Positions 6,796 through 64,000 of a stretch of DNA of 64,000 nt are shown one piece after another. A program made the translations under genes and the position numbers. The stretch comes from Lamellibrachia columna (Eukaryota > Annelida > Polychaeta > Sabellida > Siboglinidae): contig OY759266.1 of NCBI GenBank assembly GCA_963662155.1, positions 1,831,001 to 1,895,000 on the forward strand, read 5' to 3'. The notes under the pieces are model-generated. The model was given only the letters and a program-made list of their open reading frames with translations. It made no database searches and was not told the DNA's origin. The stretch's first letter is position 1. Every line of letters starts with the position of its first letter.

Positions 6796-6799
6796 TTTT

Positions 6800-7375
6800 A
6801 TTTGATATAGTCTAGCGCCAGATCCAATTTTAAATTGTTCGAGGCGCTTTACATGGCAGATAGTTGCAACATTGTTAAATAAACATGCAATTCTTTACAA
6901 ATACATTATACAAGCTAGTTAAAATAAGAATATAAAATATATATAATGTAATAAAATATAATACAATAATCATAAACTATAATAATTATATATATATATA
7001 TATAAGTTAATTAAAGTTAAATGAATTAAGATTACTAAAATACAGATAAGTACAGTAATTAAATATACTAAAAATGGTTGTCATAACTAGAGCTCAATAG
7101 TGTTAATATTATGTAGAAATATATAACTAAAATAATGTACATGAAGTTATAATCAATAAATAAATATATACATAGGTTAATACGTAATAAGATAAATATA
7201 TTAGTGCATGAACTACCATGTTGGACTAGAATGAGAGTCGATATAAACTAGTCTTTAGGCGTGTCTTGAAAGGAGAAAGAGTGTCCGACATGTTAAAGTC
7301 ATTAGGCAGAGTGTTCTACAAAGTCGCCGCGGCGACCGCAAACGAGCTGTCCCCAGCTTTGACATAAGTCCGCCA
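6800..7375. repeat. Possible dispersed repeat, AT-rich body
   Basis: The left end has the words CTAGCGCCAGATCC and GAGGCGCTTTACATGGCA, and the right part around 7250-7370 has an arrangement (CTTTAGGCGTGTCTTGAAAG, then GGCAGAGTGTTCTACAAAG) that I associate with dispersed elements common in marine invertebrate genomes. No intact reading frame is present. Element class is not established from the sequence alone. Confidence 0.35.
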
Positions 7376-7613
7376 AACTTCTCATACATTTACCATACAT
7401 ATATACACATGTTACGTTGTTAAACATTACTCTTACTTCCACGTAACGAACGTAAACAATTACAAATTATATCTTCTACGCCTAACTCCGCTAAGTTAGG
7501 CATAGGAGTTGACACGTTTTTGCTTGTTTTGATCTTTATTTGGAAGTAAGAGTAATGTTTGACCACGTCACAAGTGTATGCGTGTGGTAGATATATGAGG
7601 AGAAGTTTGGTGG
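7371..7613. repeat. Diverged inverted repeat with a perfect 20-bp core
   Basis: AAACATTACTCTTACTTCCA at 7421-7440 is the exact reverse complement of 7541-7560. Similarity extends outward with mismatches: the left arm near 7371-7440 (CCAAACTTCTC, then TTACGTTGTTAAAC) pairs with the right arm near 7541-7613. The arms are about 70 bp with a spacer of about 100 bp. This could be a MITE, a foldback element or a fossil hairpin RNA source. There is no open frame worth calling. Confidence 0.7.
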
Positions 7614-31988: not shown

Positions 31989-32581
31989 ATGGCGCTTAAA
32001 CTAAAACAGCGCGTTCTCGTTGGCACAGGGGGCGCTGCTGTCACCGTCATCTTTCTGATACATATGAACTATTTGGGAAGACTTGGAACGATCTCACAGA
32101 TGGAACCTCGAATACATAGCAGCAATATACACAAAGTGAGCGTTCTCCGAACTAATGGCGCTGAACTACCGAACTCTCGTGTTCACCTTCCGGTCATGCG
32201 CAAAGACCTCGACCTGAGCGCCTACGCTAGTCTCGAGGCAGACACAAAGAACATGACGGACTCGAGGCTGCTCGAACTAGTTCTCAAGGACCGACACCTG
32301 CAGAAGAAAGGGGCTGTCGATGGCTTCATTCGAGTTGCGCACCTTCTCGAGTCGTACCAGAACAAACATCGACAGAAGGCGAGGTCGGCGAACACGTCGG
32401 CAGCGGAAGGTGCCGGTCGTCGAGGTTCGTCGTCGGCGGAAGGCGGCACCTCGACCGGCGGCCTTGATCCGATGATCGTTGAGCGGCTGTCGGCGATTGT
32501 GCATCGAATGGCGGGGTCGCTCCGGAAGACGAAGAAACGGAGAGGACCACAACTAAACCTGTACGCTGAGGACTCGCCCAC
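31989..32581 (+). CDS. FAM20-like exon 1: cytosolic tail, signal-anchor, stem
   Basis: ATG in a favourable context (GAAAATGG), with an in-frame TAG two codons upstream (31983-31985), so this is the natural start. It encodes residues 1-197 plus two bases. MALKLKQR is a short basic tail; [20 protein letters not shown] is a hydrophobic segment fitting a type II signal-anchor. The rest is a hydrophilic, low-conservation stem with charged and Ser/Gly-rich stretches, as in other FAM20 proteins. An N-glycosylation sequon (NMT) lies near residue 88. It ends CCCAC|GTAAGT, phase 2, with a consensus donor. Codon use is GC-rich, unlike the flanks. Confidence 0.85.
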
Positions 32582-36873: not shown

Positions 36874-39800
36874 CGTGCGTGCGTGTGCGTCTGTCTAAGT
36901 GTGTGTGTGTAAATGTATCTGTCTAATTGTATTTGTCTGTGGGTATATGGCTAAGTATGTATATGTCTAAGTGTATAATTTAATTATGTACAAGTGTATA
37001 TGTATAAGTGTATCGTCGTGTACCCGAGCAGGAGTCACCTGTCGGCGTGGAAGTCGTTCCACAACCACATCAGTCAGTACTCGCTGTACGACCCGACCGA
37101 CCCGGTGATTGAGACGCTCCTTCAAGACATCGTCTCTCAGCCGATCGTCAAACTATACCAACACGAGGGCGGCACGCAACTCAAACTCGTCTTCTACCTT
37201 GCCAACAACGCCAGAGTCATGTGGAAGCCGCGCAGGTAGGCGATCGGTTGGTGGCAGCACTGGTATGGCGCCAGGTCGGAAAACACTTATAAGGCGACCA
37301 TAAGGCAAACATAAGGCGACCATAAGGCGACCATAAGGCAAACATAAGGCGACCATAAGGCGACCATAAGGCAAACATAAGGCGACCATAAGGCAAACAT
37401 AAGGCGACCATAAGGCAAACATAAGGCGACCATAAGGCGACCATAAGGCAAATATAAGGCGACCATAAGGCAAACATAAGGCGAATATAAGACAAACATA
37501 AAGCGACCATAAGGCAAACATAAGGCGACCATAAGGCAAACATAAGGCGACCATAAAGCTATTAGTTGAACAATAGCAAGTTAGCAATTCACCAATTGAA
37601 TTTGATAAATTTGATTCTAAAATATGTTTACTAACATTGTACCATGATTATTCATCATTGATAAGTACCTCAATAAGTACCTCAAGCATAAACTGATTTG
37701 AATTCAAATTGGATGTAGCATTGAACTTATTGAAACTCTACCCTTATTACTATTGATGAAGAAATTAAATTTGTTTAAATTAAACACATGAACTCTGATG
37801 GTAATGTTATTTTAACTAACAATTCATGAACATAAAACCGTTATTCAATATCTGTATTTACGTCGCCTGGTTGTAGGTTTCCCCGCGACACGGAGACGCT
37901 CCCGAATCACTTTTACTTCAACGACTACGAGAGGTTCAACGCAGAGATCGCCGCCTTCCATCTCGACAGGTTAGATGGCTGAGGTTCACATTGTCTTTCG
38001 TCTTCGTTTCCAGCTCTCGATATGTTATAGTAACTGACTAATGCACAGTGGCATTTACATGTTGTGGTTACCAGAATACGGTGGTCTTACAGGTCTTACA
38101 GGTCTTACAGGTCTTACAGGTCTTACATGTCTTACAGGTCTTACAGGTCTTACAGGTCTTACATGTAAATTTTAGAACATCACGCCAAGCCGACCTTTCT
38201 GGCACCGAGGACAGTCACTCAATGTCGTTCTCGTTTGTTCTTTTACTCACTCGTAATATTAACGAGTTAATTTTAAAATGTTCATAGCTTTTACGACAAA
38301 CCTGGGGTACCGCTCGGGTTTCTTGGTGACATTATATGTCATTTACCACCACCAGGGCGGCGCCAACTACTGCGACATGAAGTAATCTTAGTATGTATGA
38401 GTCACCGTCACCAGAGACAATTAAATTATTAACGTATTTCTTTCATTATATATGAATTTATTGAAGATGTTCAAGATGTTTGAGTGCTAACTGCTTTGTC
38501 ACATTATATCATATGTTTCTTCTTCGTGTGTCATATAAACTCGTCCGAATCATTGAAAAACCAATACGCTCACCTCGATATATCCTGACTAGCGGTTTCA
38601 CACTAACGTACATCAATATTACTTGCCTGCCAGAAAGCTGATCAATTGTAGTCGCTGAACGTATTTCAATTTGTAGTCGGCAGCTGTTGGTTGTCGGTCG
38701 ACGTTCTGGGTCGAGGGAGTGAATCAATTCCGTCCGGGAATAAATATCGCAATATCGTAAACAGTGTTATTCGATGACTTCTCTGGTTGCGTGAGACGTA
38801 CCTGGATTGTGATCATATAAAGAGGATGGAAGGCGAAACCGTCATACATCGACTAAGTTGTCCAGTAGTGTAAATAATAACTAAGTCTAGTGTTTACCAG
38901 CGTAACATAAAAAGCCCCACAGTAGTGAAATTACGTTTTCAAGGACAACTTTCAATTATATAGATGTCTCACTGACACGAGTCTTCTCTCCCCGCCAGAA
39001 TCCTCGGACTGAACCGCGTGCCTCCAACGGCGGGCAGACTAATCAACATGACACACGACATCCTACGACTGGCTGACCACAAGCTCGCAAAGACATTCTT
39101 CATTTCTCCAGGTCAGCACGATGTTTCAACAATTAGGCCTATATCCACTTCCCCGTTTAGAATAATTATTAGCAGTATGATAAAAACAGTCCGTGTTCTT
39201 TGTGCAACTAGTAACGCCTGGCAGTAGGACTTCTGGGGTCTCAGACTTTGTGCAACTAGTAACGCCTGGCAGTAGGACTTCTGGGGTCTCAGACTTTGTG
39301 CAACTAGTAACGCCTGGCAGTAGGACTTCTGGGGTCTCAGACTTTGTGCAACTAGTAACGCCTGGCAGTAGGACTTCTGGGGTCTCAGACTTATTCCCAG
39401 AGACCAACACGCGGCGCCTCACTCATCGAATCCGATGTTAGATCAGTATTTACCTTAAAGGTCCCTCCTCAATTACATTTTTTTTACTAGTCTTATATCA
39501 AATTCATTTGTGAAATATCAAACCTACCCAGTATCCATTGCTACATGCCAGCTCGTTTGTGCAATTGTTGCATGTAGGTTTTGTGAAATCATCAGACAAA
39601 CTATTAAATTACTTAATGTTTGGTCAAACATTAAGTGAGGTAAAAATGGAAACGCTGAGAACTCACAAATTTCACAAATTTCACTCTTGGTGAAATTGTG
39701 TAACTTTGTCATGTGCCCTGCGAGAAGAAGGAAGTGACGTCCGTGATCAGCATCGACCCGCAAAGTGTTTACATTATTGGATATCCAGTATGTTGAGTTT

Positions 39801-42800: not shown

Positions 42801-45800
42801 AAAGTCTCGTAGACGAAGCATAGGTCAATATTAGGTGACCTTCAAAACTCTTTTTGTGTCAGAGCCAAAAGGCGGCTGCATGCGAACTTCTTGGAGGCTA
42901 CTTGGAAACGATATCCCGTATACCATGTTCTATATCTTGTTTTATAATTATTGTGTTATATCTTGCTTTATATATTGTTTTATATCTTGTTATTTTATAT
43001 AGATCTCGTTTTATAAATATCTTATTTGATATATGTCCTGTTTTATATAGATCTTGTTTTATATTTACTTTATTAATTTCATTTATCAAATTATAAAGGT
43101 TTCCATACTGAAAATAATTAGTTTTTCTAATCTTATCCTATCTTCGTGACCACACCCTTCATGACGTCCTACACGTGACCACATCCTTCATGACCTCCTA
43201 CACGTGACCACATCCTTCATGACCTCCTACACGTGACCACATCCTTCATGACCTCCTACACGTGACCACATCCTTCATGACCTCCTACACGTGACCACAT
43301 CCTTCATGACCTCCTACACGTGACCACATCCTTCATGACCTCCTACACGTGATCATACCCCCACGCCTGTCATGTCATTTCAACCACCTTTCTCAAATAA
43401 TACAGACATCTTAACAACTTAACAGTATACACATAATATGGACGACTTTGTGGCACAGTAAGATTTATTGTTTTCTTATAGACGTGCGTCGATTAAACGG
43501 AGCTTTATTTTCTTCGAACGTAGCAATATTCACCCTAATGTGTATAAAAGTATAAAACGACGGCTGCGGTTGACACGGGTCACCGCTCTTTGATGACACG
43601 GTTCACCACTCTTTGATGACACGGGTCACCGCTCTTTGATGACACGGGTCAATGTCCTTTGATGACACGGGTCACCGTTCTTTGATGACACGGGTCATCG
43701 CTCTTTGATGACAAGGGTCATCGCTCTTTGATGACACGGGTCACCGCTCTTTGGTGACACGGGTCACCACTCTTTGGTGACACGGGTCACCACTCTTTGA
43801 TGACACGGGTCACCGCTCTTTGATGACACGGGTCACCACTCTTTAATGGCACGGATCACCACTCTTTGATGACACGGGTCACCGTCCTTTGATGACACGG
43901 GTCACCTTCCTTTGATGACACGGGGCACCACTCTTTGATGACACGGGTCACTGTCCTTTGATGGCCGCTGATAATGCGTTAATAGCGAGTACATTAAGTC
44001 GAAAACGTCGCTGCAACTTAATCTCGTTAGAGATGCATCTAATAACTGCAGCTTATCTGACACAACGCAATATATAAGGTCATAACCTGCGTCGACTCAA
44101 CAGTTACGATTAAAGCCGTCTTTGACTGTCTCCCTTCCCGTCTAATGTAGGCCTGTTTCAGCCGGCAACGTGTGCTTCCACTTCCCGTCTAATGTAGGCC
44201 TGTTTCAGCCGGCAACGTGTGCTTCCACTTCCCGTCTAATGTAGGCCTGTTTCAGCCGGCAACGTGTGCTTCCACTTCCCGTCTAATGTAGGCCTGTTTC
44301 AGCCGGCAACGTGTGCTTCCACTTCCCGTCTAATGTAGGCCTGTTTCAGCCGGCAACGTGTGCTTCCACTTCCCGTCTAATGTAGGCCTGTTTCAGCCGG
44401 CAACGTGTGCTTCCACTTCCCGCATAATGTAGGCCTGTTTGAGCCGGCAACGTGCGCTTCCACCTCATGTCTAATGTAAGTCTGTTTGAGCTGGCAACGT
44501 GTGCTTCCACTTCCTCCTGTCTAATGTAGGCTTGTTTTAGTCGTCAACGTGTGCGTCTACTTCCCGTCAAATGTAGGCCTGTTTCAGCTGGCAACGTGTG
44601 CTTCCACGGCCAGTGCGACTACTACTGCGACACGAACCACGCCGTGTGCGGGCACCCAGACACGCTCGAGGGCTCCGTGTCTGCCTTCCTACCCAGCAGT
44701 AATATCGTGGATCGCACCACGTGGCGCCACCCCTGGCGTCGCTCTTACAGGTTCGTATCTTTCAGTATGTCGCATTTCCAATGTGGCCAACGTTCCTGAA
44801 TTGACAAATAAACACGTCAACATACGTAGCGCGCGCAAGCGCGCGCGCACACACACACTCACACGCACGCACTCACCAATATATATGCAAACGTAAACAC
44901 ACTAACAGAGGTAACGGACAGACACACCAACAGAAGTAACGGACAGACACACCAATTTAAGTAACGGACAGACACATCAATAAAAGTAACGGACAGACAC
45001 ACCAACAGAAGTAACGGACATACACACCAATATAAGTAACGGACAGACACTTCAATAGAAGTAACGGACATGCACACCAATATAAGTAACGGACAGACAC
45101 ACTGATATAAGTAACGCACAGACACACCAATAGAAGTAACGGACATACACGCCAATAGAAGTAACGGACATACACGCCAATATAAATAACGCACAGACAC
45201 ACCAATAGAAGTAACGGACATACATGCCAATATAAGTAACGGACATACAGGCCAATAGAAGTAACGGACATACACGCCAATAGAAGTAACGGACATACAC
45301 GCCAATAGAAGTAACGCACAGACACACCAATAGAAGTAACGGACATACACGCCAATAGAAGTAACGGACAGACACGCCAATAGAAGTAACACACAGACAC
45401 GCCAATAGAAGTAACGGACATACACGCCAATAGAAGTAACGGACAGACACGCCAACAAGGCGCCAAGCCCAGATACGCCAACTTCCACAATATGCAGCAG
45501 GTGCACGGGCTGTTGTTAGCCACCTTCTGCAGGTGTGGAGTTCAGTGAAGCAGTCAACATGTCATCACCGATGTTGATAGCATGGAGATTACATGACATA
45601 ATGAATTAGCTCTCCAATATCAGTATTGTTGTGCACTGTATGGACCTCAACTATGGCCACTGTGGCATGACAGTGTTAACAAGATGTGCACACAGTGGCC
45701 TAATGCTTTGTGCAAGGTATGGAAGCTACCATTCGATTCGCACAGAGATTTACTAAGTATAAATGTAAATAAATGTGGAATATCAATGTCAATGCTACAT

Positions 45801-48800
45801 ACTATGACAATGCAAAAAGGCTTTGACATAGCATTGTTCGACGTGTTGTCTACGAGTCATCATCGACTGCCTTAAAGGATGTGAGTCGTAGCATTCAATC
45901 GGTCATATAGTATAATACAAGATGCGCAGATCGATCGAATGTAATTATTAGCTTACCACGTAATGACCATGACATGTGAATTATCTATGTTGATGTATTA
46001 TCTGTGTTGATGTATTGATCATAACAGAGATTATTGTTTCGTATGTGTTAACACTCACAGCGCTACAAACAAATAGTTATTCAAAGTACGGCAGTCATTT
46101 CTCTTTGTAAATAATACTGTTTGTAATGTCCCTCTCTCTCCTCCTCCCTCTCTCTCCTCCTCCCTCACTCTCCTCCTCCCTCTCTCTCCTCCTCCCTCAC
46201 TCTCCTCCTCCCTCACTCTCCTCCTCCCTCTCTCTCCTCCTCCCTCTCTCTCCTCCTCCCTCTCTCTCCTCCTCCCTCTCTCTCCTCCTCCCTCTCTCTC
46301 CTCCTCCCTCTCTCTCCTCCTCCCTCACTCTCCTCCTCCCTCTCTCTCCTCCTCCCTCACTCTCCTCCTCCCTCTCTCTCCTCCTCCCTCTCTCTCCTCC
46401 TCGCTCCCACGGGAGCCCTCGTAATAAAACAATTTTACACAATCGTGGCTGTCCGATAATCTTTTAGCGGCCCATCACAATTGAGCCAGTTCGATGTGGG
46501 TCGACGTCAATACGAGGTTCCTCAAAGCCGCCTACGGCGTTACGGAAACATTAGCGTACATTCGTTCTAATTTCGGTGGATCGATTTTGACGCGCGAGAA
46601 AACGCTGATGAACCCGGTGTGGTAGGGAATGAGAGGGTGTGGAAGGGTGTGGAATGGTGTGGAAGGGTTCTTGTTGTTGATTTTGTTGGTATCCAGTAAT
46701 ATCGAGGATAACGGATTAAAGCACCACAACGCACCTTATTTCCAATGTGGTCCTCCTGGTTTTTACGAGTGTCCTTCTCTAGAGTTAGTGAGTCCATCAC
46801 AGTTTTTACCATTTCCCTGCATGGGATCTTTTACTTTCCCTGGCATAGACACCAAATAGAAGGGACCAACGGCTTTAAGTGGGGTGAACGAAATTGCACA
46901 ACCTTCGAAACGGCGGAGGTGGTTTCGAACCTCGGTCCCTTCGACCGAAAGCCCGAAGCTATATCACGTGACCACCGCGCCCCACAAAGTATGTGGAATG
47001 GTGTGGAGAGGTGTAGAAAGGTGTGTAGACGTGTGTCAGGGTGTGACAGAATGTGATTATAGTTGTCAATTTAAAACAAACCTTTGTGCGAATTGTAGCA
47101 AACATCGCAGGGCAATGTGGGAGAGACAGGAAGGATACTGCGACACAGTGCGCGCGCAACCTCCGTACAACAGCGGACGCAGTCTGCTTGACCTCACAGA
47201 CTTGGCCGTCTTTGACTTCTTCACCGGTACGTGTCATCGCTCTGTCTTTGGCTTCTTCGCCGCTACGTGTCATCTCTCTGTCTTTGAATTCTTCACTGGT
47301 ACTTGTCATCATTACGTCTTTAACTTTTTCACTGGTCATCGTTCTGTATTTTACATCTTCTAGCGTAAGTGTCATCACGCTGTCTTTATCAGGCACACTC
47401 ACGTACACGCACACGCGCACGCACGCGCGCATACCAGACACCACTCAATATAGTTGCCGTATGGTCGTCTCATATAAGACATATAACTGTCAGCTGGACT
47501 ACACGCGGGCCACATTAGTGCGTAGATGTGGCCACGGTGTCTCGCAACTCAGTAGAACTCTCTGTGCATTAATTATACTGCACACACGAAACACGTTGTA
47601 CGGTGCAAGTCATACGTTGTACGGTGCAAGTCATACGTTGTACGGTGCAAGTCATACGTTGTACAGTGTAAGTCATACGTTGTACGGTGCAAGTCATACG
47701 TTGTACGGTGTAAGTCATACGGTAGTCGGCGCTTGTTCGTTGTATTCGTTTTGATAACATTACATTATTTACTTTTCGAAAATGCTTACGGTGGTACAAA
47801 CAAGATGAAAGTAATCGTTTACGAGGAATCTTAGACTAAAGTCTCGCTGGCCGTTTCAAGCAGCCGAAGGTGGTGTGGTATATCGCGTCAGCAAACCAGT
47901 TTATCTTCTGAACAATGGTCAGTGATACGACATATATAATTGCTCTGACCAGTCGCGAGTCTACGAGAAAGTGACCGTGTGGTTTGAGTACCCTCTGGGT
48001 CGAGGTTCCTTCTTTAAAACAATGTACTTGTGCATTCGTCGGTGGCTGAACACACCGTCTTTGCCACAGAGAGTATGGGAGCATGTAAGTCAGCTAACAC
48101 ACCGTCTATGCCACAGAGAGTATGGGAGCATGTAAGTCAGCTAACACACCGTCTTTGCCACAGAGAGTATGGGAGCATGTAAGTCAACTAACACACCGTC
48201 TATGCCACAGAGAGTATGGGAGCATGTAAGTCAGCTAACACACCGTCTATGCCACATAGAGTATGGGAGCATGTAAGTCAGCTAACACACCGTCTTTGCC
48301 ACAGAGAGTATGGGAGCATGTAAGTCAACTAACACACCGTCTATGCCACAGAGAGTATGGGAGCATGTAAGTCAGCTAACACACCGTCTTTGCCACAGAG
48401 AGTATGGGAGCATGTAAGTCAACTAACACACCGTCTATGCCACAGAGAGTATGGGAGCATGTAAGTCAGCTAACACACCGTCTTTGCCACAGAGAGTATG
48501 GGAGCATGTAAGTCAACTAACACACCGTCTATGCCACAGAGAGTATGGGAGCATGTAAGTCAGCTAACACACCGTCTATGCCACATAGAGTATGGGAGCA
48601 TGTAAGTCAGCTAACACACCGTCTTTGCCACAGAGAGTATGGGAGCATGTAAGTCAACTAACACACCGTCTATGCCACAGAGAGTATGGGAGCATGTAAG
48701 TCAGCTAACACACCGTCTTTGCCACAGAGAGTATGGGAGCATGTAAGTCAACTAACACACCGTCTATGCCACAGAGAGTATGGGAGCATGTAAGTCAGCT

Positions 48801-54772: not shown

Positions 54773-57700
54773 ACAAATCACCATAGTATAAATAACCTCC
54801 GTCGCTAAATCTGTGCGCCACAATCGTCGAAGAGATCAGTCGCGAGAGACCGTGCATCACGCAATAACGTCCTGTAAAATCATCACCTAGTTGTGGTTGA
54901 TCCTGGTGTGGTGGAAAGCTATTACTGTCGTGGTTGATAGATTCCACGCTCATCTAAAGTGACATTTTGACCCAGCGTTGTCTTCCCACAGGTAACATGG
55001 ACCGCCATCATTACGTTGTGATCGTTGCTCTCTGTCTTCCCACAGATAACATGGACCGCCATCATTACGTTGTGATCGTTGCACTCTGTCTTCCCACAAA
55101 TAACATGGACCGCCATCATTACGTTGTGGTCGTTGCTCTGTGTCTTCCCACAGGTAACATGGACCGCCATCATTACGTTGTGATCGTTGCTCTGTGTCTT
55201 CCCACAGATAACATGGACCGCCATCATTACGTTGTGGTCGTTGCTCTCTGTCTTCCCACAGGTAACATGGACCGCCATCATTACGTTGTGGTCGTTGCTC
55301 TGTGTCTTCCCACAGGTAACACGGACCGCCATCATTACGTTGTGATCGTTGCTCTGTGTCTTCCCACAGGTAACATGGACCGCCATCATTACGTTGTGGT
55401 CGTTGCTCTCTGTCTTCCCACAGGTAACATGGACCGCCATCATTACGTTGTGATCGTTGCTCTGTGTCTTCCCACAGGTAACATGGACCGCCATCATTAC
55501 GTTGTGGTCGTTGCTCTGTGTCTTCCCACATGTAACATGGACCGCCATCATTACGCTGTGGTCGTTGCTCTGTGTCTTCCCACAGGTAACATGGACCGCC
55601 ATCATTACGTTGTGATCGTTGCTCTGTGTCTTCCCACAGGTAACATGGACCGCCATCATTATGTTGTGATCGTTGCTCTGTGTCTTCCCACAGGTAACAT
55701 GGACCGCCATCATTACGTTGTGGTCGTTGCTCTGTGTCTTCCCACAGGTAACATGGACCGCCATCATTACGTTGTGGTCGTTGCTCTCTGACTTCCCACA
55801 GATAACATGGACCGCCATCATTACGTTGTGGTCGTTGCTCTCTGTCTTCCCACAGGTAACACGGACCGCCATCATTACGTTGTGATCGTTGCTCTGTGTC
55901 TTCCCACAGGTAACATGGACCGCCATCATTACGTTGTGATCGTTGCTCTGTGTCTTCCCACAGGTAACATGGACCGCCATCATTACGTTGTGATCGTTGC
56001 ACTTTGTCTTCCCACAGGTAACACGGACCGCCATCGTTACGTTGTGGTCGTTGCTCTGTGTCTTCCCACAGGTAACATGGACCGCCATCATTACGTTGTG
56101 ATCGTTGCTCTGTGTCTTCCCACAGGTAACATGGACCGCCATCATTACGTTGTGGTCGTTGCTCTCTGTCTTCCCACAGGTAACATGGACCGCCATCATT
56201 ACGTTGTGGTCGTTGCTCTCTGACTTCCCACGGATAACATGGACCGCCATCATTACGTTGTGGTCGTTGCTCTGTGTCTTTCCACAGGTAACATGGACCG
56301 TCATCATTACGTTGTGGTCGTTGCTCTGTGTCTTCACACAGGTAACATGGATCGCCATCATTACGTTGTGGTCGTTGCTCTGTGTCTTCCCACAGGTAAC
56401 ATGGACCGCCATCGTTACGTTGTGGTCGTTGCTCTGTGTCTTCCCACAGGTAACATAGACCGCCATCGTTACGTTGTGGTCGTTGCTCTGTGTCTTCCCA
56501 CAGATAACACGGACCGCCATCATTACGTTGTGGTCGTTGCACTGTGTCTTCAGGTAACATGGACCACCATCATTACGTTGTGATCGTTGCTCTCTGTCTT
56601 CCCACAGGTAACATGGACCGCCATCATTACGTTGTGGTCGTTGCTCTGTGTCTTCCCACAGGTAACATGGACCGCCATCATTACGCTGTGGTCGTTGCTC
56701 TGTGTCTTCCCACAGATAACATGGACCGCCATCATTACGTTGTGATCGTTGCTCTCTGTCTTCCCACAGGTAACATGGACCGCCATCATTACGTTGTGGT
56801 CGTTGCTCTGTGTCTTCCCACAGGTAACACGGACCGCCATCATTACGTTGTGGTCGTTGCACTGTGTCTTCAGGTAACATGGACCGCCATCATTACGTTG
56901 TGATCGTTGCTCTCTGTCTTCCCACAGGTAACATGGACCGCCATCATTACGTTGTGGTCGTTGCTCTGTGTCTTCAGGTAACATGGACCGCCATCATTAC
57001 GTTGTGATCGTTGCACTCTGTCTTCCCACAGGTAACATGGACCGCCATCATTACGTTGTGATCGTTGCACTCTGTCTTCCCACAGGTAACATGGACCGCC
57101 ATCATTACGTTGTGATTGTTGCTCTGTGTCTTCCCACAAGTAACATGGACCGCCATCATTACATTGTGATCGTTGCTCTCTGTCTTCCCACAGGTAACAT
57201 GGACCGCCATCATTACGTTGTGATCGTTGCACTCTGTCTTCCCACAGGTAACATGGACCGCCATCATTACGTTGTGGTCGTTGCTCTGTGTCTTCCCACA
57301 GGTAACACGGACCGCCATCATTACGTTGTGATCGTTGCTCTGTGTCTTCCCACAGGTAACATGGACCGCCATCATTACGTTGTGATCGTTGCTCTGTGTC
57401 TTCCCACAGGTAACATGGACCGCCATCATTACGTTGTGGTCGTTGCTCTGTGTCTTCCCACAGGTAACATGGACCGCCATCATTACGTTGTGGTCGTTGC
57501 ACTCTGTCTTCCCACAGGTAACATGGACCGCCATCATTACGTTGTGATCGTTGCTCTCTGTCTTCCCACAGGTAACATGGACCGCCATCATTACGTTGTG
57601 GTCGTTGCACTCTGTCTTCCCACAGGTAACATAGACCGCCATCATTACGTTGTGGTCGTTGCACTCTGTCTTCCCACAGGTAACATGGACCGCCATCATT

Positions 57701-60700
57701 ACGTTGTGATCGTTGCACTCTGTCTTCCAACAGGTAACACGGACCGCCATCGTTACGTTGTGGTCGTTGCTCTGTGTCTTCCCACAGGTAACATGGACCG
57801 CCATCATTACGTTGTGATCGTTGCTCTGTGTCTTCCCACAGGTAACATGGACCGCCATCATTACGTTGTGGTCGTTGCTCTCTGTCTTCCCACAGGTAAC
57901 ATGGACCGCCATCATTACGTTATGGTCGTTGCTCTCTGACTTCCCACGGATAACATGGACCGCCATCATTACGTTGTGGTCGTTGCTCTGTGTCTTTCCA
58001 CAGGTAACATGGACCGTCATCATTACGTTGTGGTCGTTGCTCTGTGTCTTCACACAGGTAACATGGATCGCCATCATTACGTTGTGGTCGTTGCTCTGTG
58101 TCTTCCCACAGGTAACATGGACCGCCATCGTTACGTTGTGGTCGTTGCTCTGTGTCTTCCCACAGGTAACATAGACCGCCATCGTTACGTTGTGGTCGTT
58201 GCTCTGTGTCTTCCCACAGGTAACACGGACCGCCATCATTACGTTGTGGTCGTTGCACTGTGTCTTCAGGTAACATGGACCGCCATCATTACGTTGTGAT
58301 CGTTGCTCTCTGTCTTCCCATAGGTAACATGGACCGCCATCATTACGTTGTGGTCGTTGCTCTGTGTCTTCCCACAGGTAACATGGACCGCCATCATTAC
58401 GCTGTGGTCGTTGCTCTGTGTCTTCCCACAGATAACATGGACCGCCATCATTACGTTGTGATCGTTGCTCTCTGTCTTCCCACAGGTAACATGGACCGCC
58501 ATCATTACGTTGTGGTCGTTGCTCTGTGTCTTCCCACAGGTAACACGGACCGCCATCATTACGTTGTGGTCGTTGCACTGTGTCTTCAGGTAACATGGAC
58601 TGCCATCATTACGTTGTGATCGTTGCTCTCTGTCTTCCCACAGGTAACATGGACCGCCATCATTACGTTGTGGTCGTTGCTCTGTGTCTTCAGGTAACAT
58701 GGACCGCCATCATTACGTTGTGATCGTTGCACTCTGTCTTCCCACAGGTAACATGGACCGCCATCATTACGTTGTGATCGTTGCACTCTGTCTTCCCACA
58801 GGTAACATGGACCGCCATCATTACGTTGTGATTGTTGCTCTGTGTCTTCCCACAAGTAACATGGACCGCCATCATTACATTGTGATCGTTGCTCTCTGTC
58901 TTCCCACAGGTAACATGGACCGCCATCATTACGTTGTGATCGTTGCACTCTGTCTTCCCACAGGTAACATGGACCGCCATCATTACGTTGTGGTCGTTGC
59001 TCTGTGTCTTCCCACAGGTAACATGGACCGCCATCATTACGTTGTGATCGTTGCTCTGTGTCTTCCCACAGGTAACATGGACCGCCATCATTACGTTGTG
59101 ATCGTTGCTCTGTGTCTTCCCACAGGTAACATGGACCGCCATCATTACGTTGTGGTCGTTGCTCTGTGTCTTCCCACAGGTAACATGGACCGCCATCATT
59201 ACGTTGTGGTCGTTGCTCTCTGACTTCCCACAGATAACATGGACCGCCATCATTACGTTGTGGTCGTTGCTCTGTGTCTTCCCACAGGTAACACGGACCG
59301 CCATCATTACGTTGTGATCGTTGCTCTGTGTCTTCCCACAGGTAACATGGACCGCCATCATTACGTTGTGATCGTTGCTCTGTGTCTTCCCACAGGTAAC
59401 ATGGACCGCCATCATTACGTTGTGGTCGTTGCTCTGTGTCTTCCCACAGGTAACATGGACCGCCATCATTACGTTGTGGTCGTTGCACTCTGTCTTCCCA
59501 CAGGTAACATGGACCGCCATCATTACGTTGTGATCGTTGCTCTCTGCCTTCCCACAGGTAACATGGACCGCCATCATTACGTTGTGGTCGTTGCACTCTG
59601 TCTTCCCACAGGTAACATAGACCGCCATCATTACGTTGTGGTCGTTGCACTCTGTCTTCCCACAGGTAACATGGACCGCCATCATTACGTTGTGATCGTT
59701 GCACTCTGTCTTCCCACAGGTAACACGGACCGCCATCGTTACGTTGTGGTCGTTGCTCTGTGTCTTCCCACAGGTAACATGGACCGCCATCATTACGTTG
59801 TGATCGTTGCTCTGTGTCTTCCCACAGGTAACATGGACCGCCATCATTACGTTGTGGTCGTTGCTCTCTGTCTTCCCACAGGTAACATGGACCGCCATCA
59901 TTACGTTGTGGTCGTTGCTCTCTGACTTCCCACGGATAACATGGACCGCCATCATTACGTTGTGGTCGTTGCTCTGTGTCTTTCCACAGGTAACATGGAC
60001 CGTCATCATTACGTTGTGGTCGTTGCTCTGTGTCTTCACACAGGTAACATGGATCGCCATCATTACGTTGTGGTCGTTGCTCTGTGTCTTCCCATAGGTA
60101 ACATGGACCGCCATCGTTACGTTGTGGTCGTTGCTCTGTGTCTTCCCACAGGTAACATAGACCGCCATCGTTACGTTGTGGTCGTTGCTCTGTGTCTTCC
60201 CACAGGTAACACGGACCGCCATCATTATGTTGTGGTCGTTGCACTGTGTCTTCAGGTAACATGGACCGCCATCATTACGTTGTGATCGTTGCTCTCTGTC
60301 TTCCCACAGGTAACATGGACCGCCATCATTATGTTGTGGTCGTTGCTCTGTGTCTTCCCACAGGTAACACGGACCGCCATCATTACGTTGTGGTCGTTGC
60401 ACTCTGTCTTCCCACAGGTAACATGGACCGCCATCATTACGTTGTGGTCGTTGCTCTGTGTCTTCCCACAGGTAACATGGACCGCCATCATTACGCTGTG
60501 GTCGTTGCTCTGTGTCTTCCCACAGATAACATGGACCGCTATCATTACGTTGTGATCGTTGCTCTCTGTCTTCCCACAGGTAACATGGACCGCCATCATT
60601 ATGTTGTGGTCGTTGCTCTGTGTCTTCCCACAGGTAACACGGACCGCCATCATTACGTTGTGGTCGTTGCACTGTGTCTTCAGGTAACATGGACCGCCAT

Positions 60701-63700
60701 CATTACGTTGTGATCGTTGCTCTCTGTCTTCCCACAGGTAACATGGACCGCCATCATTACGTTGTGGTCGTTGCTCTGTGTCTTCAGGTAACATGGACCG
60801 CCATCATTACGTTGTGATCGTTGCACTCTGTCTTCCCACAGGTAACATGGACCGCCATCATTACGTTGTGATCGTTGCACTCTGTCTTCCCACAGGTAAC
60901 ATGGACCGCCATCATTACGTTGTGATTGTTGCTCTCTGTCTTCCCACAGGTAACATGGACCGCCATCATTACGTTGTGATCGTTGCACTCTGTCTTCCCA
61001 CATGTAACATGGACCGCCATCATTACGTTGTGGTCGTTGCTCTGTGTCTTCCCACAGGTAACATGGACCGCCATCATTACGTTGTGGTCGTTGCCCTGTG
61101 TCTTCAGGTAACATGGACCGCCATCATTACGTTTTGGTCGTTGCACTCTGTCTTCCCACAGGTAATACGGACCGCCATCATTACGTTGTGATCGTTGCTC
61201 TGTGTCTTTCCACAGGTAACATGGACCGCCATCATTACGTTGTGGTCGTTGCCCTGTGTCTTCAGGTAACATGGACCGCCATCATTACGTTTTGGTCGTT
61301 GCACTCTGTCTTCCCACAGGTAACATGGACCGCCATCATTACGTTGTGATCGTTGCACTGTATCTTCCCACAGGTAACATGGACCGCCATCATTACGTTG
61401 TGGTCGTTGCACTCTGTCTTCAGGTAACATGGACCGTCATCATTACGTTGTGATCGTTGCACTGTATCTTCCCACAGGTAACATGGATCGCCATCATTAC
61501 GTTGTGATCGTTGCACTCTGTCTTCCCACAGGTAACATGGACCGCCATCATTACGTTGTGGTCGTTGCACTCTGTCTTCAGGTAACATGGATCGTCATCA
61601 TTACGTTGTGATGGTTGCACTGTATCTTCCCACAGGTAACATGGATCGTCATCATTACGTTGTGATCGTTGCTCTGTATCTTCCCACAGGTAACATGGAC
61701 CGCCATCATTACGTTGTGATCGTTGCACTCTGTCTTCCCACAGATAACATGGATCGTCATCATTACGTTGTGGTCGTTGCTCTGTGTCTTCAGGTAACAT
61801 GGACCGCCATCATTACGTTTTGGTCGTTGCACTCTGTCTTCCCACAGGTAACATGGACCGTCATCATTACGTTGTGATCGTTGCACTGTATCTTCCCACA
61901 GGTAACATGGACCGCCATCATTACGTTGTGATCGTTGCACTCTGTCTTCCCACAGGTAACATGGACCGCCATCATTACGTTGTGATCGTTGCTCTGTGTC
62001 TTCCCACAAATAACATGGACCGCCATCATTACGTTGTGATCGTTGCACTGTGTCTTCCCACAGGTAACATGGACCGTCATCATTACGAGACGTTCGAAGA
62101 CTTCGGCAACGACACCTATCCTATGATACTGGACAACGGCAGAGGGTAAATGTCGCAAGCAGTTAACTTACACCCAAACAGAGAATAGATGACCACTGGG
62201 GTTGAACTTGGTTGTGGGGCTGGAAGAAAGTTAACTCGTAGACACTCGAGATCCACACATGATACTAGGTGTCGCGTCGTCCACACGTCACATGGTCAAT
62301 ACCTACGCGACGCATTTTTTATACCTAGGGTTCTCAGCATGGGTTACGCGTACCCCCAGGGGTACACAATAAGTTTTCCAGGGTTACGCGGAGAATTGGC
62401 TGAAGCTAAGGTTGCGTGCAATGGTGCAATAATGTTGTCACTTTGTGTGGTCCACGAAGGAGAAAATGTCTTTCTGTAATACTATCAAATTCACACAAAA
62501 ACATATTCCTGCGAAGCAAACAGTCTACGCTATTAGATAACGTCGTCATCAAAGTCCATCAATTGCTATCTCGAAGGGCCTAACATTTTCCCAGTTAAGA
62601 TACTTCCTAGATTAAGTTACGACGATTTCGCCTTGTTTCAAAGGTTAGCGCCTAACTGGTAAGTTTGCGTCATCAAGTCAAACGTCATCAAGTCAAACGT
62701 CATCAAGTCAAACGTCATCAAGTCAAACGTCATCAAGTCAAACGTCACCAAGTCAAACGATCCCAGTACTAGGCTCTTCTGCCTCTTGCGCGAAGAGTTT
62801 GATACGGAGCAAGAAGGATGCTCTTCCACACTGAGGTCCGTTGGCTCTCACGAGAGAACGTAGTGTCTAGTGTGGTGTCGCAGAAAGATGAGATCACCAA
62901 TTCTTTGACCGCGTCGGCAAGGAGCAGTCTCGAAAATTCGTCGAAAATCTTTCGGACAAAGGTATCTCTTGAAGCTGGCATGCTTGGAAAACATCGTTTT
63001 CCACCTGAGATCGCTTAACAAGTCATTCCAAAGCCGGTTCACCGTGGTGATTGATTTCGTGGACAAAGCCGGTTCACCGTGGTGATTGATTTCGTGGACA
63101 AAGCCGGTTCACCGTGGTGATTGATTTCGTGGACAAAGCCGGTTCACCGTGGTGATTGATTTCGTGGACAAAGCCGGTTCACCGTGGTGATTGATTTCGT
63201 GGACAAAGCCGGTTCACCGTGGTGATTGATTTCGTGGACAAAGCCGGTTCACCGTGGTGATTGATTTCGTGGACAAAGCCGGTTCACCGTGGTGATTGAT
63301 TTCGTGGACAAAGCCGGTTCACCGTGGTGATTGATTTCGTGGACAAAGCCGGTTCACCGTGGTGATTGATTTCGTGGACAAAGCCGGTTCACCGTGGTGA
63401 TTGATTTCGTGGACAACGTACACGCATCTTTGACAGAATTGTGTTAATTGCAAAATTTTCACAAATCGTCCCAGAAATCCACGGCTGATTGTGTACGCTC
63501 GAACCCCTCTTTAACTGTCTGGGCACTGGGCTCTCCTCTCTTCGAGGAGTCTCACACATACATACATCATTCCCGGATGTGAGTGCGCTGGGTTCGAAAT
63601 TCCTCCGTTCAGTGCAGATGTGCAAGAGGATTTGTAGAAGTTCGTGAACGAATCCACCGCGCGTGATGCATTTGACGCCCTACCCCTGCCAAAGTGTTGG

Positions 63701-64000
63701 CCTAAGATGAGAGAATCGTATCCATAAGTAGCTGATGCGTCCATGAGGGTATTGCTGATGCGTCCATGAGGGTATTGCTGATGCGTCCATGAGGGTATTG
63801 CTGATGTTCCCATTTAATATCTCGTAAATGTCCTGCATGTAAACTAAATTAATTTCGTGCCCGACTTGTGTATGATGGACGACCTCCGCGTCTTGTCCTT
63901 AATTCTTCCCTGATTCGACACTCTGGTTTTAACCAGGTAAACTCAGCTCTCACATTGAGGTAATTATTATTATTATTATTATTATTTGTTGCAGGTTCGG
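31989..64000 (+). CDS. FAM20C-like secretory-pathway kinase gene (8 exons seen, 3' end beyond window)
   Basis: This is the only host gene I can support. FAM20 proteins are Golgi or secreted kinases; FAM20C phosphorylates S-x-E motifs of secreted proteins, including biomineralisation proteins, and FAM20B phosphorylates xylose. Exons: 31989-32581, 37032-37235, 37877-37969, 38999-39111, 44588-44750, 47111-47226, 62064-62145 and 63995 onward. All joins keep frame and total 456 codons so far. Visible in order: signal-anchor (about residues 9-29), stem, GGTQLKL, WKP lysine, [10 protein letters not shown] glutamate, RVPPTAGRL, Cys-rich [30 protein letters not shown] catalytic loop and DNGRGFG metal site. 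FAM20C rather than FAM20B is preferred because the loop reads GNMD (FAM20B has GNGD in my recollection), and FAM20A is less likely because the metal-binding Asp is intact. About 100 C-terminal residues should lie to the right. Introns total about 30 kb, mostly minisatellite. Confidence 0.92.
32582..33331 (+). other. Intron 1, proximal unique part
   Basis: AT-rich intron sequence. About four diverged copies of AATAACACTATGAACTTAGT (23-24 bp spacing) lie at 32803-32903. No exon recognised. Confidence 0.6.
33332..33450. repeat. 17-bp array of CRE octamers in intron 1
   Basis: Seven exact 17-bp units of GTTGACGTCAGTGGTAC. Six carry the palindromic cAMP-response element TGACGTCA; the fourth has TAACGTCA. 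This is a homotypic cluster with sites spaced 17 bp apart. Confidence 0.95.
33560..33657. repeat. (CACACACG)n microsatellite
   Basis: An 8-bp ACACACGC repeat, about 11 units, with CACGCACG ends. Confidence 0.93.
34010..34100. repeat. Degenerate 10-11-bp repeat
   Basis: TCCTACCACAC-type units, about 8 copies with variants (CCTACGACAG, CTAACACAC). Confidence 0.75.
34371..34521. repeat. 49-bp tandem repeat, 3 units
   Basis: Units contain AAGACTCGTCTACAGGCTGC, then CGACGTTGTCACTGTATGGT, then CTGCGTGCT. Confidence 0.93.
34620..35763. repeat. 34-bp minisatellite, about 32 units, rich in CACGTG E-boxes
   Basis: Units read GGAGGAAGGAGACGTGTCAC, then TGAGCACGTGAAAC. Most contain the palindromic E-box CACGTG; variants have CACGCG, CACATG or CATGTG. 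The first 80 bp are diverged. Some units are 33 bp (one A missing in GTGAACGG). Located in intron 1. Confidence 0.95.
35764..36712 (+). other. Intron 1 distal part with a possible dispersed repeat
   Basis: About 36180-36580 has the arrangement GACGAAGCGTTACATTGGGG, G-rich runs and CTGACGTACTATATGGATGG that I associate with terminal regions of dispersed elements in marine invertebrates. No intact frame. Class not determined. Confidence 0.35.
36713..36861. repeat. (AT)n microsatellite followed by (GT)n-like tract
   Basis: Nearly pure TA/AT dinucleotides, broken by AATGC at about 36765 and ATGTGTGT near 36780. It continues into GTGTGCGTGC at 36865-36890. It lies about 170 bp upstream of exon 2. 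Confidence 0.97.
37032..37235 (+). CDS. FAM20-like exon 2: start of kinase domain
   Basis: Encodes [16 protein letters not shown], then [36 protein letters not shown] and KPR. The WKP lysine corresponds to the nucleotide-binding Lys of the family (LFKP in vertebrates). I chose the acceptor CGAGCAG|GAG because it restores phase 2 from exon 1. An acceptor four bases upstream (CCCGAG|CAG) would need a different phase fill but is also in frame when one codon is added, and the pyrimidine tract is poor for both, so the left border is the least certain in the gene. The donor is CGCAG|GTAGGC, phase 2. Confidence 0.85.
37288..37556. repeat. 11-bp repeat in intron 2, two alternating unit types
   Basis: AAGGCGACCAT and AAGGCAAACAT units in mixed order, about 24 copies. 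Open minus-strand frames across it are by-products. Confidence 0.93.
37557..37876 (+). other. Rest of intron 2
   Basis: AT-rich unique sequence up to the exon 3 acceptor. A short duplication (AATAAGTACCTC twice) lies at 37660-37686. Confidence 0.6.
37877..37969 (+). CDS. FAM20-like exon 3: [10 protein letters not shown] segment
   Basis: Acceptor GGTTGTAG|GTTTCC and donor CGACAG|GTTAGA, both phase 2. It encodes [19 protein letters not shown] followed by [12 protein letters not shown]. The Glu in AEIAAFHLD is the conserved helix glutamate that positions the active-site metal and lysine in FAM20 kinases. Both borders are fixed by the family alignment and by phase. The donor is weak (GTTAGA). 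Confidence 0.92.
38088..38166. repeat. 10-bp repeat TCTTACAGGT in intron 3
   Basis: About eight units of GGTCTTACA, each with TTACAG|GT, which resembles a minimal 3' splice site followed by GT. Two units read TTACATGT. Confidence 0.92.
38167..38998 (+). other. Rest of intron 3
   Basis: Unique sequence with no exon recognised, ending in a strong pyrimidine tract before exon 4. Confidence 0.5.
38999..39111 (+). CDS. FAM20-like exon 4: RVPPTAGRL segment
   Basis: Strong acceptor (GTCTTCTCTCCCCGCCAG|A) and donor CCAG|GTCAGC. Encodes [18 protein letters not shown], then [19 protein letters not shown]. It enters in phase 2 and leaves in phase 1. RVPPxAGR and the FISPAGN junction with exon 5 are family signatures. 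NMT is a potential N-glycosylation site conserved in position in the family. Confidence 0.93.
39205..39394. repeat. 48-bp repeat in intron 4, 4 units
   Basis: Units contain GTGCAACTAGTAACGCCTGG, CAGTAGGACTTCTGGGGTCT and CAGACTTT. They are nearly identical. The period keeps frames open on both strands, but no coding role is supported. Confidence 0.95.
39395..40202 (+). other. Intron 4 unique part
   Basis: AT-rich unique sequence. A diverged pair of segments near 39590-39640 and 40080-40150 looks similar on opposite strands (both contain AGTTTGTC/CAAACTAT-like words). No gene called. Confidence 0.4.
40203..42551. repeat. 26-bp minisatellite in intron 4, about 90 units
   Basis: Units of CCAGCACGTCGTAGTGGATA plus CTAGAG. 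Variants (CATGTCCTAG, AAGTCGTAG, GTAGAGGATAC, AGTCAGC) recur in the same order, showing block duplication. There are almost no indels over 2.3 kb. Confidence 0.97.
42552..43143 (+). other. Intron 4 unique part
   Basis: No exon recognised. 42940-43090 holds diverged TATATCTTGTTTTATA repeats of about 20-30 bp. Confidence 0.5.
43144..43352. repeat. 29-bp repeat, 7 units
   Basis: Units contain GTGACCACATCCTTCATGAC followed by CTCCTACAC. Confidence 0.95.
43572..43965. repeat. 23-bp repeat, about 17 units
   Basis: Units of GATGACACGGGTCACCGCTC plus TTT, with substitutions (CCACTC, CGTCC, GGTGACACGG). Each carries a GGTCACC or GTGACAC motif. Confidence 0.94.
44132..44587 (+). repeat. 47-bp array of duplicated exon 5 splice acceptors
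   Basis: Nine decoy copies precede the true acceptor. AG dinucleotides end at 44161, 44208, 44255, 44302, 44349, 44396, 44443, 44490 and 44540, with the true one at 44587; spacing is 47 bp except one step of 50. Each unit is about 27 nt of intron end (TCTAATGTAGGCCTGTTTCA) plus 20 nt of exon start (GGCAACGTGTGCTTCCAC, reading GNVCFH). The six distal units are near-identical. The three closest to the real exon have drifted and have weaker acceptors (TTTGAG, TTTTAG). 47 is not a multiple of 3, so a single upstream jump shifts the frame. Confidence 0.95.
44588..44750 (+). CDS. FAM20-like exon 5: cysteine-rich insert
   Basis: Acceptor CTGTTTCAG|CTGGCAACG and donor TTACAG|GTTCGT, phase 1 in and 2 out. 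Encodes [20 protein letters not shown], then [16 protein letters not shown] and [13 protein letters not shown]. The four cysteines match the disulphide-bonded insert of FAM20 proteins. The acceptor and first 20 nt of this exon are present nine more times directly upstream at 47-bp spacing (44,132-44,587), so correct use of the most downstream copy is essential: the 47-bp shift changes frame. Confidence 0.94.
44751..44891 (+). other. Start of intron 5 with (CG)n and (CA)n tracts
   Basis: GCGCGCAAGCGCGCGC at about 44830-44846 is followed by ACACACTC/ACACGCAC runs. The first could form Z-DNA or a small hairpin. Confidence 0.6.
44892..45457. repeat. 25-bp repeat in intron 5, about 22 units
   Basis: Units of GAAGTAACGGACATACACGC plus CAATA, with GACAGACAC and GCACAGACAC variants. 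Open frames on the minus strand are repeat by-products. Confidence 0.94.
45458..46122 (+). other. Intron 5 unique part
   Basis: No exon recognised. Short open stretches on both strands near 45647-45875 have no known domain. Confidence 0.5.
46123..46403. repeat. 16-bp pure pyrimidine repeat
   Basis: CTCCTCCCTCTCTCTC-type units, about 17 copies, some with TCACTC. The plus strand is almost entirely C/T for about 280 bp and so can form intramolecular triplex (H-DNA). Confidence 0.95.
46670..46990 (-). mobile_element. Probable tRNA-derived SINE
   Basis: The minus strand from about 46985 begins GGGGCGCGGTGGTCACGTGA (an A-box-like TGGTCACGTGA) and about 45 bases later has GAGGTTCGAAACC, which fits the polymerase III B box GGTTCGANNCC. 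The body continues with TTAAAGCCGTTGGTCCCTTC, AAGATCCCATGCAGGGAAAT and CTGTGATGGACTCACTAACT, wording I associate with dispersed invertebrate SINEs. It ends near 46680 in a GTTGGTATCCAGTAATATC-type region (plus-strand text reversed). No coding capacity. Confidence 0.6.
47111..47226 (+). CDS. FAM20-like exon 6: YCDTV to FDFFTG
   Basis: Acceptor ACATCGCAG|GGCAATG and donor TTCACCG|GTACGT, phase 2 in and 1 out. Encodes [37 protein letters not shown] and TG. The segment leads directly into the catalytic loop. The acceptor has only a weak pyrimidine tract. The last 19 nt and the donor are repeated downstream with decay (47,227-47,395), and the frame stays open through these copies to a TAG at 47361. 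Confidence 0.9.
47227..47395 (+). repeat. 36-bp diverged copies of the exon 6 donor region
   Basis: The exon end GTCTTTGACTTCTTCACCG and donor GTACGTGTCATC start at 47208. Diverged copies start at 47244, 47280, 47316, 47346 and 47382 (steps 36, 36, 36, 30, 36). The donor position reads GTACGT (true, 47227), CTACGT (47263, dead), GTACTT (47299), GTCATC (47335) and GTAAGT (47365, consensus). The reading frame of exon 6 remains open through the first three copies and stops at TAG 47361. Confidence 0.88.
47585..47727. repeat. 21-bp repeat in intron 6, about 6-7 units
   Basis: Units of ACGTTGTACGGTGCAAGTCA plus T, with GTAAGTCAT variants. Confidence 0.93.
47728..48039 (+). other. Intron 6 unique part
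   Basis: No exon recognised between the 21-bp and 47-bp arrays. Confidence 0.5.
48040..52845 (+). repeat. 47-bp array of microexon-like units, 102 copies, intron 6
   Basis: From the TGCCACAG at 48062 to that at 52809 is 4747 bp, exactly 101 steps of 47, so there are no net indels. Each unit reads TCTTTGCCACAG, AGAGTATGGGAGCAT, GTAAGTCAGCTAACACACCG: a plausible acceptor, 15 nt, and a consensus donor. Variants occur at T/A in TTTGCC/TATGCC, CAGCT/CAACT, GAGCAT/GAGCCT and CATAGAG for CAGAGAG (acceptor AG moved). The CATAGAG variant recurs at 329-bp (7-unit) steps at 48251, 48580 and 48909, so the left part has a higher-order repeat. A few units have GTATGT in place of GTAAGT. Confidence 0.96.
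52846..53403 (+). other. Intron 6 unique part
   Basis: No exon recognised. An open stretch at 53082-53312 lacks a known domain. Confidence 0.5.
53404..53535. repeat. 19-bp repeat, about 7 units
   Basis: Units of GACTGACCAGGCCTACTCA with substitutions. Confidence 0.9.
53705..54181. repeat. 18-bp repeat, about 26 units
   Basis: The unit CATTGGCTACCTTCCAGT, with CTTCTAGT and ATTTGCTACC variants. It is 6 codons long, so one frame stays open as a Leu-Pro-Ser-Ser-His-Trp repeat; I do not consider it coding. Confidence 0.95.
54182..54975 (+). other. Intron 6 part between two arrays
   Basis: Contains a (TA)n tract at about 54727-54770 and a GTGCGTGC run near 54675-54700. No exon recognised. Confidence 0.5.
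54976..62063 (+). repeat. 54-bp array of duplicated exon 7 splice acceptors, about 132 extra copies
   Basis: Each unit is CTGTGTCTTCCCACAG (intron end) plus GTAACATGGACCGCCATCAT TAC (exon 7 start, reading GNMDRHHY) plus GTTGTGGTCGTTG. The first acceptor AG ends at 54991 and the true one at 62063. The interval of 7072 bp equals 132 steps of 54 if about 14 units lack four bases (CTTCAGGTAAC for CTTCCCACAGGTAAC), which is the number of short units I counted. A 1716-bp higher-order repeat (32 units) is visible: the same variant strings recur at 56105 and 57821, and at 56544 and 58260. The units read open as [18 protein letters not shown] in frame with exon 7. Confidence 0.97.
62064..62145 (+). 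CDS. FAM20-like exon 7: catalytic loop GNMDRHHYE and DNGRG
   Basis: Acceptor TCTTCCCACAG|GTAACATGG and donor CAGAGG|GTAAAT, phase 1 in and 2 out. Encodes [20 protein letters not shown] and MILDNGRG. The Asp of MDRHHY is the catalytic base position of FAM20 kinases and the Asp of DNGRG is the metal-binding position, so the active site is intact. This exon is the right-hand end of the 54-bp array: the preceding units are copies of its acceptor and first 24 nt (reading GNMDRHHY). The real copy is marked by CGT for the CGC Arg codon and by the turn into GAGACGTTCGAAGAC. Confidence 0.95.
62669..62758. repeat. 15-bp repeat inside hAT relic, 6 units
   Basis: The unit GTCATCAAGTCAAAC reads VIKSN in the transposase frame, matching the conserved (V/I)NFIKS-type segment before RLF. 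The last unit has GTCACC. Confidence 0.95.
63030..63414. repeat. 35-bp repeat inside hAT relic, 11 units
   Basis: Identical 35-bp units (AAAGCCGGTTCACCGTGGTG, then ATTGATTTCGTGGAC). It starts directly after the NKSFQ codons of the transposase. No differences between units are visible, so it is very recent. Confidence 0.97.
63731..63805. repeat. 23-bp repeat inside hAT relic, 3 units
   Basis: GCTGATGCGTCCATGAGGGT plus ATT, starting within the transposase segment ADASMRVLL. Confidence 0.93.
63995..64000 (+). CDS. FAM20-like exon 8, first 6 nt (cut by window edge)
   Basis: TTTGTTGCAG|GTTCGG: with the two bases left over from exon 7 this reads Gly-Phe-Gly, giving the family DNGRGFG motif. An (ATT)n run at about 63965-63987 lies just before the acceptor. 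Confidence 0.85.

Follow-up and report, generated by a model that had tools for sequence, protein, structure and literature searches.

A 132-copy tandem array across the intron 6/exon 7 acceptor of a predicted FAM20C-type kinase gene in the annelid Lamellibrachia columna, probably a very large mirage

How can a gene live with its own splice acceptor repeated more than a hundred times in front of the exon it serves, and how would such an array have come about? This question is raised by a 64,000-nucleotide stretch of the genome of Lamellibrachia columna (Annelida, Siboglinidae), hereafter the window (assembly GCA_963662155.1, contig OY759266.1, forward strand, C6:1831001-1895000 in an 880-Mb genome of 30 contigs), in which the junction between intron 6 and exon 7 of a predicted FAM20C-type kinase gene is present in 132 tandem copies. 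We interpret this array as a mirage, the term used for tandem repeats over intron-exon boundaries in amphioxus genes, among them globin genes (BflGb6, BflGb9), Adh3, troponin C, and PGBD5 in the parts of the reports used here (PMC3087553, PMC3902484). With a probability of roughly 85%, it is a junction-spanning minisatellite that ran away to 132 copies and is tolerated because its last copy is intact.

Tandem Repeats Finder (TRF) places the array at 54979-62087 (+), with a period of 54 bp, 132.7 copies, and 93% matches. Anchors set on the exonic letters recovered 133 junctions, 132 of them in array copies and the last at the true exon 7 (62064-62145, +; donor GAGG/gtaaat, the slash marking a splice junction here and below), which encodes the FAM20 catalytic loop GNMDRHHY. 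The 132 spacings between junctions measure 54 bp in 118 cases and 50 bp in 14, all 14 short units having an identical 4-bp deletion, ending in TCTTCAG, and retaining AG/GT. Each unit consists of the 24 nt that begin exon 7, coding for GNMDRHHY, and the 30 nt that end intron 6; read from the junction, its consensus begins with the exon part GTAACATGGACCGCCATCATTACG and continues with the intron part TTGTGGTCGTTGCTCTGTGTCTTCCCACAG. The true exon 7 begins with the final 24 nt of the array, which is thus flush with the exon; together with the shared 24 coding nt this rules out a unit unrelated to exon 7. The original prediction had proposed about 132 tandem copies of the exon 7 acceptor junction, a unit made of the exon's own acceptor and start, and a full exon reached from the last copy only. 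TRF, the anchors, and the column tally bear this out, with the intron share being 30 nt and not the ~16 nt then assumed, and the predicted interval of 54976..62145 resolving into the array and the true exon 7 at the positions given above.

The repeat therefore carries an exon part, a splice site, and adjoining intron in each unit, and the splice dinucleotides are kept in many, not all, of them. An acceptor AG is found at 124 of 133 junctions including that of the true exon 7 (123/132 array copies), and AG/GT at 115 of 133 (column tally), the AG being lost in 9 of 132 array copies and AG/GT at 18 of 133 junctions. A chance test was judged unnecessary for an array of 132 copies, the reality of which is confirmed within the limits of the assembly.

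The composition of the array gives indications of how it grew. The 132 units comprise 54 distinct sequences, and adjacent units are no more similar than random pairs (mean of 3.77 differences in both). Long blocks recur, one of 21 units at a lag of 37 (8 of 1134 columns differing) and one of 16 units at a lag of 32 (2 of 864), pointing to recent growth through duplication of blocks of units. Exonic differences from exon 7 average 1.08 in the last 12 units, only slightly fewer than in the remaining sets of 12 units (1.17-1.83). Within the exonic part, 11 distinct changes over 23 positions were found, all of them transitions, with 7 being non-synonymous and 4 synonymous (7 of the 23 possible transitions are synonymous). 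Variable columns amount to 12 of 24 in the exonic part, 6 of 17 in the spacer, and 10 of 13 in the last 13 letters, one of these by deletion alone. The exon 7 copies within the array show no sign of coding constraint, and their variation looks neutral. The presence of an active-site motif in the repeat, emphasized earlier, looks incidental, because the exonic letters are as variable as the rest, non-synonymous changes outnumber synonymous ones, and other junctions of the gene and of its paralogues are amplified as well.

Such repeats also cover two further junctions of this gene. A second mirage covers the exon 6 donor junction (47208..47336, +) with a 36-bp unit in 3.6 copies by TRF, or five degenerate units by pattern, and a third covers the exon 5 acceptor junction (44134..44607, +) with a 47-bp unit in 10 copies, the first six of them identical and the following ones divergent; its regular copies read AG/CC. 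The exonic nucleotides caught in the three arrays number 20 (exon 5), 19 (exon 6), and 24 (exon 7), always at the exon edge. An enrichment of arrays at junctions can be ruled out; they are depleted instead, since 3 of the 14 gene junctions fall inside arrays vs a mean of 8.3 in 5000 random placements of 33 arrays (three or fewer in 68/5000). Likewise, 63 of 1364 exon bases lie inside arrays vs ~702 by random placement, a value as low occurring in 0 of 5000. The arrays avoid exons, and the three touching one do so at its edge. The placement test used the earlier exon 6 boundary, which made the exon 12 nt shorter, and the 56 arrays underlying the junction and placement analyses were merged by hand from 73 TRF rows, omitting those that overlap an array already listed and the AT-rich ones at 6930-7005.

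FAM20 relatives are situated ~0.1-0.2 Mb downstream of the window on the opposite strand, and three pieces of paralogous sequence (L011, L012, and L013; reverse-complement coordinates throughout) contain junction arrays of their own. L011 carries an exon 3 donor array (5527-5712, 28 bp in 6.7 copies) and an exon 6 donor array (6947-7543, 36 bp in 16.4 copies), L013 an exon 3 donor array (4377-4812, 28 bp in 15.7 copies), and L012 an exon 6 donor array (4459-5127, 36 bp in 18.7 copies), with exon 6 itself not found in that piece. The copy number of the exon 6 donor array thus differs among the gene copies (3.6 in the window, 16.4 in L011, 18.7 in L012). The end flanks of the L011 and L012 arrays are nearly identical and that of the window is different, so the arrays of L011 and L012 very likely derive from one ancestral array. 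The donor GT is intact in 3/4 units in the window, 13/15 in L011, and 11/16 in L012, counting units caught by pattern, which misses more degenerate ones. A 47-bp array in L011 and L013 ends before it reaches the exon 2 acceptor.

The age of intron 6 can be judged from L011, in which exon 7 follows an intron of the same place and phase through one acceptor, TTCCCAG/GCAATCTGG, i.e., AG/GC; a TATG repeat lies upstream, with the acceptor outside it. Intron 6 is therefore older than the large array, which would be either private to the copy in the window or lost from L011. L012 (C6:2029001-2039000) has an exon 7 without acceptor, has no bearing on the age of the array, and looks like a pseudogene, since exons 5 and 6 were not found in that piece and exon 7 lacks its acceptor. 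Immediately before this exon 7, at ~7300-7600, lies a stretch resembling, by eye, the end of a LINE-type (long interspersed nuclear element) retroelement with a GAAGTGAAGTGAA tail. As a separate observation, intron 5 of the window gene (44751-47098) is absent from L011, whose exons 5 and 6 form one uninterrupted stretch (6661-6965).

The original prediction knew of no described case of a junction with an active-site motif amplified to such an extent, a claim that does not hold in view of the amphioxus mirages (PMC3087553, PMC3902484) and of repeats in human segmental duplications (PMC2812944). In amphioxus, according to the sections considered, donors as well as acceptors are affected with splicing reported or held to be undisturbed (PMC3087553, PMC3902484), AG/GT is found in many, not all, of the homogenized units, and normal mRNA was obtained by reverse transcription PCR (PMC3087553). 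The Lamellibrachia arrays resemble these in being minisatellite-type junction repeats at donors and acceptors, with AG/GT in most units of the large one. They differ by the 132 copies, as opposed to 6 and 3 units in the BflGb6 haplotypes and 2-7 in PGBD5 (PMC3087553, PMC3902484, as far as these parts go), by three affected junctions in one gene, and by their occurrence in an annelid instead of a cephalochordate. Paralogues in human segmental duplications are described, in the part of the report used, as having variable tandem repeats of on average 30 bp in four copies, some at exon-intron boundaries, and transcripts with new introns (PMC2812944). Minisatellite expansion at a junction and duplicated genes are common to both, whereas the intron is old here and is known from DNA alone. 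Within the accessible portions of the open-licence literature, no annelid mirage and no comparable copy number was noticed; for earthworm metallothionein, exon 4 duplications and intronic minisatellites are described, and no junction-spanning array was noticed in the portion covered (PMC12783039). The exon 7 array is thus probably a very large mirage of known type in a new phylum.

On the proposed route, slippage or unequal exchange would have duplicated the 30 nt at the end of intron 6 together with the 24 nt at the start of exon 7, further exchange would have multiplied this unit, lately in blocks of units, and the copies would have drifted without coding constraint. The gene presumably survives because the copy adjoining the exon body remains intact. 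The spliceosome may favor the last acceptor through exon definition, or a wrong choice may be repaired by re-splicing to a later acceptor; the latter is possible in principle because most units read AG/GT, so that exon 6 joined to one of them is left with a new GT donor. Were exon 6 spliced to an array acceptor and the rest simply read through, a stop codon or frame shift would be met ahead of exon 7 from 119 of the 123 array acceptors that are intact; acceptors 128-131 would add 36-90 residues in frame and without a stop. Wrong use is presumably rare or repaired. We consider the array to be probably tolerated rather than useful, and most likely neutral.

A more far-reaching version of the repair would turn the array into a self-correcting splicing ladder, exon 6 being spliced to whichever of over 100 sites it meets and re-spliced until the true exon 7 is reached. 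Since most units join acceptor and donor directly and in a single phase, arrays could then grow at almost no cost, which would explain a huge AG/GT mirage and supply material from which splicing-rate control and new exons might arise; we regard this version as doubtful. A related proposal, in which selection maintains the units because they tune splicing of the 14.8-kb intron 6, acting as decoy acceptors or as sites of recursive splicing, appears improbable to us. Both may appeal to the 112 of 133 junctions reading CAG/GTAACA, which match the donor consensus in 7 of 9 letters (simple count), as do six of the gene's seven own donors, and the proposal of a selected device may also appeal to the consensus (Y)nNCAG/GTAAGT given for recursive splice sites, zero-length exons also termed ratchet points, in the part of PMC5126111 used. 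The array shares with these an acceptor abutting a GT donor within a long intron. It is unlike them in being tandem, neutral-looking, and without the +5 G and +6 T, the agreement with the consensus extending to GTAA, and in being known so far as genomic DNA. The donor regenerated on exon 6 reaches just 6 of 9 consensus letters, and AG/GT is gone at the 18 junctions mentioned. Among the 132 units, the last two intron letters are changed in 3 and 6 and the first exon letter in 14, and the site is not better kept than its surroundings, by comparison within the array only. Furthermore, L011 manages without an array and with AG/GC at its exon 7, and the exon 5 mirage, with AG/CC in its regular copies, is incapable of such splicing, so that re-splicing is no general requirement for mirages.

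The units could alternatively be coding, either as separate exons or within exon 7, and lengthen the kinase by repeats of 18 residues, as the 54-bp unit is open in the frame of the exon and acceptors 128-131 yield the in-frame extensions described above. This is highly improbable given the stops and frame shifts behind 119 of the 123 intact acceptors, 14 units that shift the frame, changes within the array that show no coding constraint (7 non-synonymous vs 4 synonymous), and no insertion at that site in the solved FAM20 relatives. An assembly artefact, with the array missing or much shorter in the animal, has a precedent in an amphioxus globin mirage misassembled in a draft genome, as stated in the part of PMC3087553 used here; set against the 54 distinct unit sequences, the structured blocks, the 63-Mb contig, and similar junction arrays elsewhere in the same genome, its chances are slighter still. 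Finally, intron gain through tandem duplication of an AGGT segment has been described (PMC4974935, in the part used), and every unit constitutes a GT...AG stretch, which would fit a new intron in the making. The occurrence of intron 6 in L011, in the same place and phase and without the exon 7 array, makes the intron the older of the two and rules out intron gain as the origin, leaving this explanation with practically no weight.

Some points count against a neutral, tolerated mirage. Normal splicing across the array is assumed. In the first 28 units, taken over the whole unit in the frame of the exon, 7 of 18 distinct changes are synonymous vs an expected fraction of 0.27, a slight excess without a formal test, and junction columns 2-4 (TAA after the G) are invariant within the array. 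The link between array and paralogues depends on L011, the single paralogue whose exon 7 acceptor could be read.

As a mirage, the array exceeds the amphioxus cases by far in copy number (PMC3087553, PMC3902484, in the parts considered), and it belongs to a gene family with several junction arrays, shared as well as private. It offers a natural test bed for the choice of one acceptor among 124 by the spliceosome and for distinguishing exon definition from re-splicing. Gene-prediction programs may call the units of such arrays exons.

The assignment of the host gene is founded on similarity to solved FAM20 kinases and on the Fam20C domain. Exon 7 matches FAM20C structures (5yh0, E 9.5e-11), the spliced exons match the Pfam family Fam20C (PF06702, E 1.5e-55), and the spliced product matches the zebrafish Fam20C structure 5yh0 with E 3.3e-97; these matches apply to the exons in the window, and the C-terminal exons lie beyond it. 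The exons were located using a piece of human FAM20C as query and by reading of splice junctions, all on the + strand: exon 1 at 31989..32581 (putative start codon, N-terminal hydrophobic stretch, in-frame join to exon 2, homologue upstream of the paralogues), exon 2 at 37032..37235, exon 3 at 37877..37969, exon 4 at 38999..39111, exon 5 at 44588..44750, exon 6 at 47099..47226 (donor ACCG/gtacgt), and the first bases of exon 8 at 63995..64000, continuing past the end of the window. The start of exon 6 was moved from 47111 to 47099 because the alignment to solved FAM20C proteins was four residues short and TAG/CAAACATCGCAG at 47099 gives them back in frame.

More distant relatives are found on contigs C12 and C10, where the fetched pieces (L016-L018) show no array less than 30 nt from a matched exon; in L016, exons 6 and 7 form one exon. 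A cluster at 19.90-20.07 Mb of C12 holds 20 of the 34 FAM20-family exon matches listed, which suggests tandem gene amplification.

Tandem repeats with a period of at least 9 make up 64% of the window (1-64000), which is located 1.8 Mb from the end of its 63-Mb contig; for comparison, two 5-kb pieces elsewhere contain 10% and 5%, and fourteen pieces in or around FAM20 genes 1% to 62%. The first 10 kb of a 15-kb contig (L024, C29:1-10000) are 86% tandem repeat. Positions 1-5274 of the window are occupied by a 57-bp array of 92 copies with long open stretches in several frames on both strands; a coding repeat was rejected here, the synonymous fraction being near expectation in each of the six frames (78/92 units used). 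Ten other open reading frames of the window gave no match above the cut-off against Pfam and two weak ones below it.

In addition, a mitochondrial contig (C30) was read over 10 kb of its 16.8 kb, giving on one strand the order F-E-P-T-nad4L-nad4-C-M-(rrnS)-V-(rrnL)-L1-A-S2-L2-nad1-I-K-nad3-S1-nad2-cox1-N-cox2-D-Y-G-cox3, with proteins named by eye, rRNAs inferred from gaps, and atp8 not confirmed; ARAGORN reported 1 tRNA in the bacterial setting and 20 to 23, some spurious, in the mitochondrial one. Protein-gene order is described as highly conserved in Pleistoannelida in the portion of PMC4866719 used. From trnC on, the order of C30, which points to an annelid and led to the rejection of amphioxus as the source, agrees with the one-strand annelid order C-M-rrnS-V-rrnL-L1-A-S2-L2-nad1-I-K-nad3-S1-nad2-cox1-N-cox2-D-atp8-Y-G-cox3 given in the part of PMC8924214 considered.

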